From NCBI GenBank assembly GCA_016184105.1, contig JACPDI010000048.1:1-42215 (forward strand): 42,215 bases of DNA, in the 5' to 3' direction. The notes beneath the pieces were generated by a model, which was given only the letters and a program-made list of their open reading frames with translations, was not told the origin of the DNA and did not search any database. Shown here one piece after another: positions 14,189 through 17,312 of the stretch. The DNA is from Acidobacteriota bacterium. Lineage in GTDB: Bacteria > Acidobacteriota > Vicinamibacteria > Vicinamibacterales > 2-12-FULL-66-21. The number at the start of each line of letters is the position of its first letter. Position 1 is the stretch's first letter. A program made the position numbers and the translations under genes.

Positions 14189-14386
14189 ATGTGGCACTGG
14201 ATCAGTTGCTATCTTGTCGGGCACGACTACAGCATCTGCTGTGAGTCGGGCGCGATGTTTTTGCGGTGCGCCAACTGCGGCCGCCGCTCGCAGGGTTGGG
14301 ATGTCGTGCATCCGCTCCAGCCGCATCTGGCGCACGACCACGTGGCGACGCACAATCGCGAGCTTGCGCCCGCCAGACATCACTGA
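14189..14386 (+). CDS. Small zinc-ribbon-like protein
   Basis: A 65-aa product starting MWHWISCYLVGHDYSICCES, with a CANCGRRSQGW motif and a His-rich tail (HPLQPHLAHDHVATH). Four Cys and several His suggest metal binding. The start ATG 14189 has AGGAG 8 nt upstream. Its TGA stop lies within the 9-bp target duplication of the transposon that begins at 14390, so the insertion just spared the coding region. Function unknown. Confidence 0.6.
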   Translation: MWHWISCYLVGHDYSICCESGAMFLRCANCGRRSQGWDVVHPLQPHLAHDHVATHNRELAPARHH

Positions 14387-14407
14387 CCCGGTAGTGGGTC
14401 AGTTTCA
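14381..14407 (+). repeat. Left end of the transposon: target duplication plus inverted repeat
   Basis: CACTGACCC (14381-14389) is one copy of a 9-bp direct repeat. GGTAGTGGGTCAGTTTCA (14390-14407) is the terminal inverted repeat. The GGTnnTG start resembles IS1-family ends. Confidence 0.85.
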
Positions 14408-14451
14408 ATTTTCGGCTCTCCTCGCTTGACCGCCGTGTTACGCTCCGGAGC

Positions 14452-14709
14452 GTGACCTTGGAGACGCGACTACTGATCGAATTGACCGACCTGAAAAGCA
14501 TTTCCTTTGTCTGCCGTCAATGTGGCGCGCGCGTGAGCCGCTCTCCTGAACGGGCCGATCGCATTCCGACTGTTTGCGGAGAATGTCAGCATCCGTGGCA
14601 CCAAACCCTTGAATCGACTGCCACAGACTTTGCCCACGCCCTCACGGCGCTGCGCCGTGGAAATGGGACCGGCTTCAAGATTGTGCTGGAAGTCGAGGCA
14701 CCGAAGTGA
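14452..14709 (+). CDS. Cargo gene: small zinc-ribbon protein
   Basis: An 85-aa product from GTG 14452. Residues 20-50 contain CRQCG and CGECQHPW, a four-Cys zinc ribbon, followed by a short alpha/beta C-terminus. It overlaps the next gene by 4 nt (GTGA), so the two are translationally coupled. TGTTACGCT (an extended -10) ends 7 nt upstream of the GTG. Function unknown; it is the leftmost gene in the transposon. Confidence 0.6.
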   Translation: MTLETRLLIELTDLKSISFVCRQCGARVSRSPERADRIPTVCGECQHPWHQTLESTATDFAHALTALRRGNGTGFKIVLEVEAPK

Positions 14710-14942
14710 GCCGCCCCAAGCGCCCCCGCGACTTGTCGCAGCGCGCTCTGCAAATCGTGCAGGAGTCCACTGGCCAGATTCCCAAACCGGCGGACCCGGA
14801 TGCTGGAAAGGATCCGGCGGCTGTGGCGCTCGGGCGGCGAGGCGGCGCGAAGGGCGGACCCGCTCGGGCAGCGGCGCTGACAGCGCGCAAGCGTAAACAG
14901 ATCGCGCAGGCAGGGGCTGCGGCACGATGGAAGAAACGCTAA
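14706..14942 (+). CDS. Cargo gene: basic KGG/ARW-type small protein
   Basis: A 78-aa, strongly basic product. After a disordered start it has LGRRGGAKGGPARAAALTA and ends in IAQAGAAARWKKR. This LGxxGGxKGGxAR...ARW pattern recurs in many small bacterial proteins of unknown role. Its charge suggests nucleic-acid binding, which is inference. GTG start overlapping the preceding stop. Confidence 0.6.
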   Translation: MSRPKRPRDLSQRALQIVQESTGQIPKPADPDAGKDPAAVALGRRGGAKGGPARAAALTARKRKQIAQAGAAARWKKR

Positions 14943-14949
14943 GACGGCT

Positions 14950-15159
14950 ATGTTAGCCGCGATTCTTACGATCGCCAGCGGCGTGGCGCTGGGCAATCTC
15001 ATCAGTGAGGGGCTGATCGCAGCAGGCCGAGAGAACGAGCGTTTCCGTCTATTCACAGCGCTTCTCGTCTTCGTGCTTTTTCTCGGCGGAGTCGTTGGTC
15101 TGGGGTACGTGTTCTACACAGGTGGAGGATCGCGGCTCCTGAACTGGCTACAGCGCTAA
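14950..15159 (+). CDS. Cargo gene: small two-helix membrane protein
   Basis: A 69-aa product with two hydrophobic segments: ILTIASGVALGNLISEGLIA at about 5-24 and LFTALLVFVLFLGGVVGLGY at about 34-53. It begins 7 nt after the basic protein, so the three plus-strand cargo genes look like one operon. No family recognised. Confidence 0.5.
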   Translation: MLAAILTIASGVALGNLISEGLIAAGRENERFRLFTALLVFVLFLGGVVGLGYVFYTGGGSRLLNWLQR

Positions 15160-15161
15160 CT

Positions 15162-15518
15162 TCATCCGAGATGGAGTAGGCCCGCCGCATCTAGCAGTTC
15201 CCGCAGTCGCCGGTGCTCACCTTCCAATGTCGCAAGCTCGCTTAGCGTGCGCGCAAGACTTTCCATATCGAAGCTGTCGCGTGATACCGACACATCAGCA
15301 CCAGTCGCGAGCGCAGGATTCAAGTTCTCAATCGTGATCGTTGACGCCTGAATGCTGATTTGGTACCCAAGGTGCAGGCCCTGAAGCGCACCCCCAAGGA
15401 CAGTTTGCTCTCGCCCGATGCGAGTCAATCGTGCCTGTAGCAGTGCCACATGCTGTGTCAGGTCTTTGTACCGCTCTACGGCACGCATTTGCTCGACCGC
15501 TCGTTCTTCCTGCGTCAT
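15162..15518 (-). CDS. Cargo gene: coiled-coil protein of unknown function
   Basis: A 118-aa product from ATG 15518; a GTG at 15536 directly after the transposase stop is an alternative. Two amphipathic, Leu/Arg-rich helices (VERYKDLTQHVALLQARLTR and LARTLSELATLEGEHRRLRE) flank a beta-like middle (YQISIQASTITIENLNP). It lies directly downstream of the transposase and could be cotranscribed with it. An accessory role in transposition is possible but unproven. Confidence 0.5.
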   Translation of the reverse strand: MTQEERAVEQMRAVERYKDLTQHVALLQARLTRIGREQTVLGGALQGLHLGYQISIQASTITIENLNPALATGADVSVSRDSFDMESLARTLSELATLEGEHRRLRELLDAAGLLHLG

Positions 15519-15536
15519 TGGGGAAAAGCCTAGCAC

Positions 15537-16391
15537 CTACGCGGCCTGTTGACGAGTCCCCATTACCCCGATTAGTTCATTCAACTCCCACACGTGATCG
15601 GTCACCCCCGCCGCGATCGCGGGCGTCACGCGCAGTGTCTGATGGATGCGGCAGAAGTTGTAGTGCAAATAGAAGATCGCGACCATGGCCGCATGGTTCT
15701 GCACTTTCTTCGAGAAGCCATTGGTCAGTCTGGTGAACCGTCGCATCGCCATCCGCATTGTGAGGTTCTGGCGTTCAACGTAGCTGGTGGAGATGTACCG
15801 CCTGTCGGGCTGACCCTGAATGACGCGCCGAGTGGCGGCGGTAATCGTCGCGGGGCTGTACCGTACAGCCGCGCTTGCATCCGGAGCTGGTCCCCGACCG
15901 TACCGCTTCTCTAGCATCCCATAGTCGATTTCGCTGCCAAATGCCTGCTCGACCACATCGAGGTACCAGACAAGGCCGTCCGTCGTGAGTTGCACACGCG
16001 TCGTTAGCCGAGCTGCCACGTCGCGCATGAACTGATAAGCGATTACTGGATGTCGCGGTCCCACGCGGTGCGCTAATACCAATTTGGTGTCAGCGTCGAG
16101 CGCGACCCACGTCCAGACGTCCCCGAAGCCCCATAGCCCTTTCAGATGCTCCGGGACGTTCTTCTGCTTCGCATAGCAGAAGGACCAAATCTCATCGATC
16201 TGGACGCGGCGACAGGCCAGGCCACGCAGTGTGCGATCCAAGTGCTGCGCACAAGCTGGTCCCAAATCGCTGAGTAGCTTGGTGATCGTGTTCTTCGCCA
16301 CACCCGTCATGCGGACGGTAGACCGAATGCTGCTGCCTTCGGTCAACGCGGCGATCACGGCGACTTGTCGCCCTACCGGCAGCCGATTCAT
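15537..16391 (-). CDS. IS1-family DDE transposase (single frame)
   Basis: A 284-aa transposase. The N-terminus is a helix-turn-helix-like segment (SIRSTVRMTGVAKNTITKLL). The catalytic residues are D66 in QIDEIWSF, D138 in LTTDG and E206 in YVERQN, followed by the basic helix MRRFTRLTNGFSKK and YNFCRIH typical of IS1-like enzymes. Unlike classical IS1, which needs a frameshift between insA and insB, this is one continuous frame. Start ATG 16391 is exactly 7 nt after a TATAAA, so the mRNA is probably leaderless. No frameshift or stop, so it is likely active. Confidence 0.85.
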   Translation of the reverse strand: MNRLPVGRQVAVIAALTEGSSIRSTVRMTGVAKNTITKLLSDLGPACAQHLDRTLRGLACRRVQIDEIWSFCYAKQKNVPEHLKGLWGFGDVWTWVALDADTKLVLAHRVGPRHPVIAYQFMRDVAARLTTRVQLTTDGLVWYLDVVEQAFGSEIDYGMLEKRYGRGPAPDASAAVRYSPATITAATRRVIQGQPDRRYISTSYVERQNLTMRMAMRRFTRLTNGFSKKVQNHAAMVAIFYLHYNFCRIHQTLRVTPAIAAGVTDHVWELNELIGVMGTRQQAA

Positions 16392-16398
16392 ATTGACA

Positions 16399-16427
16399 TT
16401 TATACTTGAGCGGTCAACCTATGTCAA
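16399..16427 (-). promoter_or_regulatory. Near-consensus promoter of the transposase
   Basis: On the minus strand TTGACA (16422-16427) and TATAAA (16399-16404) are separated by exactly 17 bp, and TATAAA ends 7 nt before the ATG. The -35 overlaps the stop codon of the Ntn hydrolase gene. This is the best promoter match in the window. Confidence 0.75.
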
Positions 16428-17116
16428 CCAAAATATTGGTACTTCTTGCCAATCTCCCCCACAGGCGCTGTCGGGAACGCTGGCAATTTTCCCTGTTGCT
16501 CGTACACCGTCCGGAAACCGTCGATTACTTCAAGGGGTAACTGAGCGATATCGTCATACCGCAACCCAATGACATGAGTTTCCACCCCTACGCCAGTGGC
16601 GGGCTCTGAGAAGAATTTTGCTGCGCAGGCGAGATACGCTCCCTCGATGCGCGGAGTACGTCGATTGCAGCGGTAATGCGCGAGATACTGTTCGGCGGCG
16701 GCGGCTCCGGAACCAATCGCTGCAACGCCCCGTCTCCCGTGAGAGGTAATGCTGGGCACAGGATAGCCAACCGCATCGTACGCGACGAGCAGATGAGGCC
16801 GGCGTCGGTGATCGAAGCCTGCCACGAGCAAATACCGATCCTCGTCCATTTGGCACGGCCAAGATTGGCACGCAACAATCAGGGCTGCTCGAACCTGCGC
16901 GATGGTGTGAGGATGTTCGGCAAATTGATCTTGGAGCGACAGAAGCGCTTGCTCACACGGTGAGACGTTTCCTGCATAGAGGACGTACCATCGTTGATCG
17001 AGGAGTTGGATCTTCTCTGCGGTATTGCTGGTGGTATAGTCCAAGCTGAACTGGGTGTCCGCGGCGCCGAAAATCGTACGTGACTGGTCACAGATCAGGG
17101 CCAGACAAGTCGTCAT
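16424..17116 (-). CDS. Cargo gene: HslV/proteasome-like Ntn hydrolase
   Basis: A 230-aa product from ATG 17116. It starts MTTCLALICDQSRTIFGAAD, which fits the pattern of 20S proteasome beta subunits and HslV: a Thr exposed after Met removal, then Asp near position 18, then Lys in AEKIQLL corresponding to K33, and the YAGNVSP glycine strand. An autoproteolytic Ntn hydrolase fold is therefore likely, with Thr2 or Thr3 as nucleophile. It is longer than HslV (about 175 aa) and no ATPase partner such as HslU is nearby. The substrate is unknown and could be peptide or amide. It lies within the transposon, 127 bp from its right end. Confidence 0.6.
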   Translation of the reverse strand: MTTCLALICDQSRTIFGAADTQFSLDYTTSNTAEKIQLLDQRWYVLYAGNVSPCEQALLSLQDQFAEHPHTIAQVRAALIVACQSWPCQMDEDRYLLVAGFDHRRRPHLLVAYDAVGYPVPSITSHGRRGVAAIGSGAAAAEQYLAHYRCNRRTPRIEGAYLACAAKFFSEPATGVGVETHVIGLRYDDIAQLPLEVIDGFRTVYEQQGKLPAFPTAPVGEIGKKYQYFG

Positions 17117-17242
17117 GCTCCCAGGATACTGAACTTTCTGCTTGAGCGGTAATCGCTTTCTGATCCGCTGGAGATACGGGGGTGTCGGGACATCTGGTCC
17201 ATAGCGCGGCACCCACGGGAGTCTAGTTTCGGCTCGTGGGCC

Positions 17243-17269
17243 TGAAACTGACCCACTACCCACTGACCC
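17243..17269 (-). repeat. Right end of the transposon: inverted repeat plus target duplication
   Basis: 17243-17260 is the exact reverse complement of 14390-14407, followed directly by the second CACTGACCC (17261-17269). Confidence 0.85.
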
Positions 17270-17312
17270 TGCCCTGAAGGGTCGCCGGAATCGGTTGCGA
17301 TAGAATGACGGG

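Follow-up and report, generated by a model that had tools for sequence, protein, structure and literature searches.

What an IS1-type transposase is doing in the company of five other genes, all enclosed by one pair of inverted ends, is the question raised by contig JACPDI010000048.1 of an Acidobacteriota bacterium (order Vicinamibacterales; assembly GCA_016184105.1). We refer to its full 42,215 nucleotides as the window, which is one whole contig of a 4.24-Mb genome in 69 contigs. Typical IS1 elements measure about 0.7-1.2 kb, carry the transposase only, have GGT..TG ends and duplicate 8-10 bp of target. The element in the window is 2871 bp long, and we consider it, with a probability of about 0.8, to be a unit transposon in which an IS1-type transposase acts on 18-bp ends, with a two-gene core, a variable cargo and promoter-linked insertion sites. 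The probable second core gene encodes a small basic protein, for which we coined the name ARW. The parts on which this reading turns are as follows.

14381..14389, no strand: left copy of the target duplication, CACTGACCC, by sequence; contains the TGA stop of an open reading frame of 65 amino acids (aa; 14189-14386)
14390..14407, + strand: left inverted end, GGTAGTGGGTCAGTTTCA; similar ends in 65 other elements
14706..14942, + strand (opposite the transposase): ARW gene, probable second core gene, 78-aa basic protein; motif in 64/66 elements, three-helix model
15537..16391, - strand: IS1-type DDE transposase, 284 aa in a single frame; Pfam and NCBIfam matches, D66, D138 and E206 aligning with Escherichia coli InsB
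17243..17260, - strand: right inverted end, complement of the left end by end comparison
17261..17269, no strand: right copy of the target duplication, CACTGACCC, by sequence

The two ends are complementary at 18 of 18 positions, and direct copies of CACTGACCC flank them. Within the 8 kb around the transposase this pair of ends scores 29, compared with 24 for the same pair shifted by one base and 18 for the best unrelated inverted pair. The point of insertion is the stop codon of the 65-aa frame, 43 bp ahead of the start of the next gene. The transposase and the five further frames are all open. An earlier note on this DNA had described perfect 18-bp ends, a 9-bp duplication, an intact single-frame IS1-like transposase and five further intact frames, and each of these descriptions holds. 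The duplication is also similar to the interior of the element's end, ACTGACCC (14381-14407); none of the other elements was noticed to share this likeness, which is probably due to chance.

The transposase was assigned to IS1 by the Pfam model DDE_Tnp_IS1 (PF03400), which scores 28.8 bits against a cut-off of 24.1, above the gathering score, and is the sole Pfam or NCBIfam model above its own cut-off for this protein. Its conserved residues D66, D138 and E206 line up with acidic residues of InsB. The NCBIfam IS1 match begins at model position 47 of 199 and leaves positions 1-46 uncovered; in IS1 transposases the part before position 47 contains a zinc finger. A sequence search of the PDB with the transposase gave no match. 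The element would be moved by this DDE transposase acting on the 18-bp ends, which are of a GGTAGTG type.

Could the extra genes instead be a pre-existing operon, or a chance assembly, lying beside a copy of IS1? The element is single-copy in its own genome, where there is one transposase match and where an end search returned, apart from the element's own two ends, only two places with three mismatches. Most of the cargo genes are also without relatives in other elements. Both observations would suit an operon. Against it stand the single end pair with its perfect 9-bp duplication, the same kind of architecture in 65 other elements, and the proteasome-like N-terminal nucleophile (Ntn) hydrolase of the cargo, which within the order occurs in such elements only. 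The neighbouring genes also occur without the element in a genome of the same family. The right-hand neighbour has matches in 6 of 12 family genomes, own included, and three loci were examined. In one of them (G002, L243) the left and right neighbours are adjacent, with one 616-bp alignment at 67.7% across the joined site; in a second (L244) both flanking sides align in two blocks with no 2.8-kb gap, and the third (L245) has the right-hand gene alone. The earlier note had proposed looking for an empty site with a single CACTGACCC. In G002 the neighbours are adjacent, but the base-level junction aligns too poorly to show a single copy. We therefore regard an operon or chance assembly as extremely improbable and treat the element as a unit transposon.

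Relatives of the transposase were found in 47 of 149 genomes of the order, own genome counted, and at 170 places in a species-level genome set. The best 80 of these 170 were kept (51-63% identity), and among them are relatives from Acidobacteria, Planctomycetota, Actinomycetota, Chloroflexi, Zixibacteria, Proteobacteria and other taxa. A total of 109 loci (L006-L114) were scanned by script for inverted ends around the transposase together with a duplication. Once three of them (L008, L011 and L014) had been removed as second copies of the same places, GGTAGTG-type ends, typically GGTAGTGGGTCAGTTTGA or GGTAGTGTCTCAGTTTGA, delimit 65 loci, giving with the window 66 elements of 1862-4779 bp. Duplications of at least 8 bp accompany 63 of the 66, two of them with one mismatch. 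At the 58 sites with long flanks (in three further elements with duplications the flanks were too short on both sides) the duplication is 8 bp in 56 and 9 bp in two, the window among the latter.

Beyond the transposase and ARW, every one of the 66 elements has at least 665 bp of sequence (median 1675) and, by a mechanical criterion, at least one separate open frame of at least 100 aa. Large size with extra genes is the rule among delimited elements of this transposase group. The earlier note was right to see a cargo-carrying IS1-type transposon; the size that it stressed, about three times normal, is no exception among the delimited relatives. Two outcomes that the note had held up against its own claim, that the ends would be absent from other copies or that the cargo genes would occur in the same order without them, did not come true: similar ends bound the 65 other elements. 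We observed one 2131-bp element (L158:99-2229) with GGTAGTG ends, an 8-bp duplication, ARW and other frames but no transposase match, which is probably non-autonomous. Transposases of the window type are also encoded on 27 viral-classed contigs (L192-L218), some of which may be prophages or misclassified bacterial DNA, and a Methylocapsa plasmid copy (L253) lies close to Shedu-type nuclease and UvrD/AAA genes.

When the elements were compared all against all, the transposase gene and ARW were the only two found to be widely shared. The C-terminal motif of ARW, KGG..ARA..EIAKKAAKARW, was detected by profile in 64 of 66 elements and nowhere in 349,927 flank bases of the same loci. Of these 64 elements, 60 have ARW on the transposase strand, and in 56 it lies no more than 600 bp from the transposase-upstream end. 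Distances between ARW sequences track those between transposases (Mantel r 0.45, n=55; none of 5000 permutations reached this value). A second set, of 27 viral-contig loci, yielded 17 distinct delimited elements, 15 of them with the motif. Among plasmids, 22 records have a match, and ARW was present in all four loci fetched. ARW is mostly missing from more distant IS1-type loci: among ten whose transposase either does not match that of the window or does so below 35% identity, none has it in the 0.7-3.6 kb covered. Across the order, 31 of 41 full-length ARW matches lie at most 4 kb from a transposase match, and 30 of these share its strand; conversely, ARW is within 4 kb of 27 of 36 long transposase matches.

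The earlier note had counted this basic KGG/ARW protein as cargo. Because the motif is in 64 of 66 elements, is absent from the flanks and diverges along with the transposase, ARW is probably not cargo and most likely belongs to the element itself. The AlphaFold model of ARW has helices at residues 10-22, 37-57 and 60-76 (mean predicted local distance difference test score, pLDDT, 89.4; predicted template modelling score, pTM, 0.42). Foldseek found no PDB match to this fold and a sequence search of the PDB gave nothing significant (best E 0.092). The widespread group would have a core of two genes, encoding the transposase and ARW (small, basic and predicted to form three helices), together with a slot for variable cargo, and ARW may bind DNA alongside the transposase or regulate it.

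It is also possible, though somewhat improbable, that ARW stands outside the transposition system, as a common maintenance or cargo gene of, for example, nucleoid-like or regulatory function that is inherited with the transposase. One plasmid record labels the gene 'histone H1', and the motif occurs fused to P63C-type proteins. ARW is absent from two of the 66 delimited and two of the 17 distinct viral elements. Moreover, 38 of the order's 71 ARW matches are not near a transposase match, 28 of them partial and mostly C-terminal; this number is an over-count because the ARW search covered 161 genomes and the transposase search 149, with the nine weakest transposase rows left out. The near-constant presence of ARW, its usual place near the transposase-upstream end and its co-divergence with the transposase argue instead for a core gene.

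We also noted large cargo proteins with an N-terminal ARW motif in five elements (L006:2381-3514, L046, L064, L070 and L109), the first of which has a P63C domain and a match to the phage family phrog_2384. The window element is atypical within the group in ARW orientation only. A 1.9-kb element (L202:3224-5114) has a weak ARW match (E 5.6e-7) that, like that of the window, is on the strand opposite the transposase and close to the other end, and in L062, L064 and L113 the best ARW match is likewise on the other strand from the transposase.

With insertion sites aligned by transposase direction, TTGAC appeared at a fixed place. The counts that follow leave out two elements with duplications whose flanks were too short on both sides. 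TTGACA, matched at 5 or more of 6 positions and starting exactly at the eighth base past the duplication (+8), was present on 14 of 60 sides to the right and 5 of 59 to the left; base shuffles averaged 0.22 and 0.24, respectively, and none of 2000 exceeded 3. Counted by site, the box is at +8 in 19 of 61 (at least 5/6) and 31 of 61 (at least 4/6), leaving 7 bp between insertion and box, and at other offsets on the same strand matches of at least 5/6 number at most 3. A -10 box (at least 4/6, spacing 16-18 bp) follows on 17 of the 32 sides with a -35 box of at least 4/6, compared with 7.3% of 16,547 similar flank hexamers (odds ratio 14, Fisher p 1e-11). The promoter in this register points away from the element, and 22 of 29 are located on the 3' side of the transposase. 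In a second set of 19 sites (13 viral, 4 from other genome loci and 2 from plasmids) the box is at +8 in 3 right and 2 left sides, and 0 and 3 of 2000 shuffles, respectively, were as high.

Since about a third of the insertions are fixed 7 bp upstream of a sigma70-type -35 box, the transposition complex would, at the level of the group, most likely recognise promoter DNA or the RNA polymerase bound to it. A different explanation of the register is that the transposase prefers a TTGAC half-site, or that selection produced it, without any part played by promoters or RNA polymerase. In its favour, there is no box of at least 4/6 at 30 of 61 sites, and the genes next to the box (20 away, 7 toward, 4 none) show no clear difference in direction from those on other sides (48, 24 and 5). 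The excess of -10 boxes at sigma70 spacing behind the -35 boxes (17/32 versus 7.3%) is hard to reconcile with it, and selection alone would hardly yield a register of one base. We find the half-site or selection account rather doubtful and favour promoter recognition. A hairpin target was also considered and rejected, as joined sites have no folding advantage over neighbouring sequence (Mann-Whitney p 0.95). In E. coli IS1 itself, 20 copies gave 9 with a duplication and 8 distinct sites, and the box reached 5/6 at +8 in none of the 8 and 4/6 on one side; with 2.5 expected at the group rate, this control is too small to exclude the register in IS1. The window's own site has one feature of this kind:

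17301..17306, + strand: TAGAAT, tentatively a -10 box for the gene downstream, close to where other insertion sites would put it; a -35 box in register is absent

The remaining genes of the window element make up its cargo.

14452..14709, + strand: 85-aa zinc-ribbon protein with two CxxC motifs; weak FmdB-type ribbon, NCBIfam E 0.0013, below cut-off
14950..15159, + strand: 69-aa hydrophobic, probably membrane protein; open frame, no relative in other elements
15162..15536, - strand: 124-aa protein, probably a coiled coil (by eye); open frame, no relative in other elements
16424..17116, - strand: proteasome-like Ntn hydrolase, 230 aa; by residues and profile, in 7/66 elements

The zinc-ribbon gene overlaps the ARW gene by 4 bp (GTGA). 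The Ntn frame as listed (301 aa) extends through the inverted end, and its start was corrected: alignment with relatives suggests an ATG at 17116 (MTTCLAL...) and a protein of 230 aa. Residues T2, D20 and K35 are invariant in the five sequences of alignment A6 and would correspond to the catalytic N-terminal Thr, Asp and Lys of proteasome- and HslV-like Ntn hydrolases. A profile search of the PDB returned proteasome beta subunits (E 1.7e-9), and the Pfam model PF00227 scores 19.8 bits, below its cut-off of 22.4. The window protein resembles the 20S proteasome beta subunit in its T/D/K catalytic residues and differs from it in being encoded by a stand-alone cargo gene. An AlphaFold model of the hydrolase was set aside (pLDDT 44).

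Seven of the 66 elements (the window, L007, L021, L055, L063, L077 and L103) carry the Ntn hydrolase. In the order it was found in 2 of 162 genomes, the window's own and G109 (element L007), both times inside such an element, in agreement with the co-occurrence with the transposase that the earlier note had suggested checking. The fold is not restricted to these elements: a wider profile matched 13 of 396 genomes of the phylum, and of 13 places beyond the window's only one (L122) has a transposase within 1.5 kb. No Ntn relatives were confirmed in viral contigs and none were found in plasmids. Full-length relatives of the zinc ribbon are present in L007 and L037. As L007 holds relatives of both, the Ntn hydrolase and zinc ribbon are the only supported module, in two elements. 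The idea in the earlier note that the whole cargo may form a functional module has limited support, from this pair; for the membrane and coiled-coil proteins no relative was detected in any other delimited element. We suggest that the cargo is retained as something useful or addictive to the host, and that within the window's cargo slot, with its zinc ribbon and two small proteins, the Ntn hydrolase may contribute to this by cleaving a protein or peptide.

Cargo varies between elements. We scanned 131 other frames of at least 110 aa in the 65 relative elements, where sets A1 and A2 hold the longest per element and A3 the rest. In the 65 longest, Pfam families include P63C (6), IrrE-type peptidase (5), NYN (4) and DNA methylase (3), and A3 adds Gp49, PemK, Abi_2, PIN and others. 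PADLOC families that recur in A1 and A2 include mad2 (4), type II/III methyltransferases (3), capP (3 and 3), RmrA (3) and HEC-09 (2). In a control with the longest flanking frame of 60 of the 65 loci, one PADLOC family appeared in two members and none in more; these are counts per family and not of proteins with any match, so the contrast between cargo and flank is qualitative. Some defence or toxin-antitoxin families therefore recur in the group, none of them in the window cargo. This recurrence, with the presence of the Ntn hydrolase in 7 of 66 elements and its pairing with the zinc ribbon in two, might suggest that the window cargo works as a dedicated anti-phage defence module with the hydrolase at its centre. 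PADLOC gave no match for the Ntn hydrolase of the window, L007 or L063, and for the other window cargo only a weak match of the zinc ribbon to Cas12f (E 0.0038). Such a module is, in our view, quite improbable.

Several observations weigh against the reading as a whole. The NCBIfam model transpos_IS1 (NF033558) matches the transposase with E 2.8e-13 and 50.3 bits, below its cut-off of 100. Of the 109 loci, 41 are undelimited, some of them on short flanks or contigs; 18 of these are without ARW and 23 have the motif. We do not claim that the cargo group is monophyletic, as its common ancestor takes in 10 other sequences (support 0.776). The window element, single-copy in its genome, has ARW on the opposite strand, unlike 30 of 31 ARW matches near a transposase in the order, and the motif that ends ARW is found as well at the N-terminus of P63C-type proteins related to phrog_2384. 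With regard to the target, a reverse-strand box appears at offset 9 on five sides, +8 is not the offset with the highest mean match in the second set, and sites without a -35 box show no -10 excess (p 0.25). The window's own site has no -35 match at +8 on either side, only TAGAAT near the expected -10 place. Finally, a defence reading of the group's cargo would follow from family names, and the window cargo has no convincing PADLOC family.

How does this group compare with known systems? It shares with the IS1 family, represented by E. coli IS1A (L118, 768 bp), the DDE residues, GGT..TG ends and duplications of 8-9 bp. The elements are 2.4-6.2 times longer than IS1A, the window's among them exceeding the typical IS1 size, and they differ further in the single-frame transposase, the uncovered NCBIfam positions, ARW and the cargo. 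IS1-related elements above 1 kb, some with passenger genes, were already known in the ISMhu11 subgroup of IS1 and in the IS1595 family, and the likeness to the group is one of size and passenger genes. A search of the openly available literature gave no report of fixed-distance promoter targeting or of a conserved second gene in IS1. Tn7-like transposons have a different, multi-protein transposition machinery. Their cargo is varied and includes defence genes, as in the group, according to the passages cited (PMC8649781).

A closer parallel in target choice is offered by TnGBS and its relatives, which in the cited passages insert at a fixed distance upstream of sigmaA promoters, with the -35 region 15-17 bp from the inverted repeat (PMC3942029). 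The same passages describe promoter-upstream targeting for TnGBS, ISLre2 and ISKra4, with Mutator-like transposases, and a conserved orientation in some (PMC3942029). In the group, an 8-bp duplication plus 7 bp likewise places the -35 box 15 bp from the end, exactly so in 19 of 61 sites; this agreement is seen at the level of the group and not at the window's own insertion. Unlike those elements, the group has an IS1-type transposase (PF03400) and not a Mutator-like one. Insertion of IS1 or IS5 upstream of the E. coli bgl promoter is reported, a selected case (PMC11043490).

Three points appear to be new: the second gene and the extra genes that delimited elements constantly carry, both based on 66 and 17 elements, and the promoter register, based on 61 and 19 sites. 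A bolder proposal, of a class in which an IS1-type transposase and an obligatory ARW dock on sigma70 promoters, insert exactly 7 bp before the -35 box and serve as a compact vehicle for interchangeable defence or addiction genes across many phyla, is unlikely to hold as stated. If the reading given here is correct, IS1, among the best-studied insertion sequences, would have a large branch with extra genes in every delimited case. That branch would nearly always have its own second protein and would share its promoter-upstream targeting with the unrelated TnGBS and ISLre2, so that convergent promoter targeting becomes directly testable in a second transposase family. The combination of GGTAGTG ends and ARW would also provide a simple signature for small cargo transposons, and for new defence-type genes, in draft genomes.

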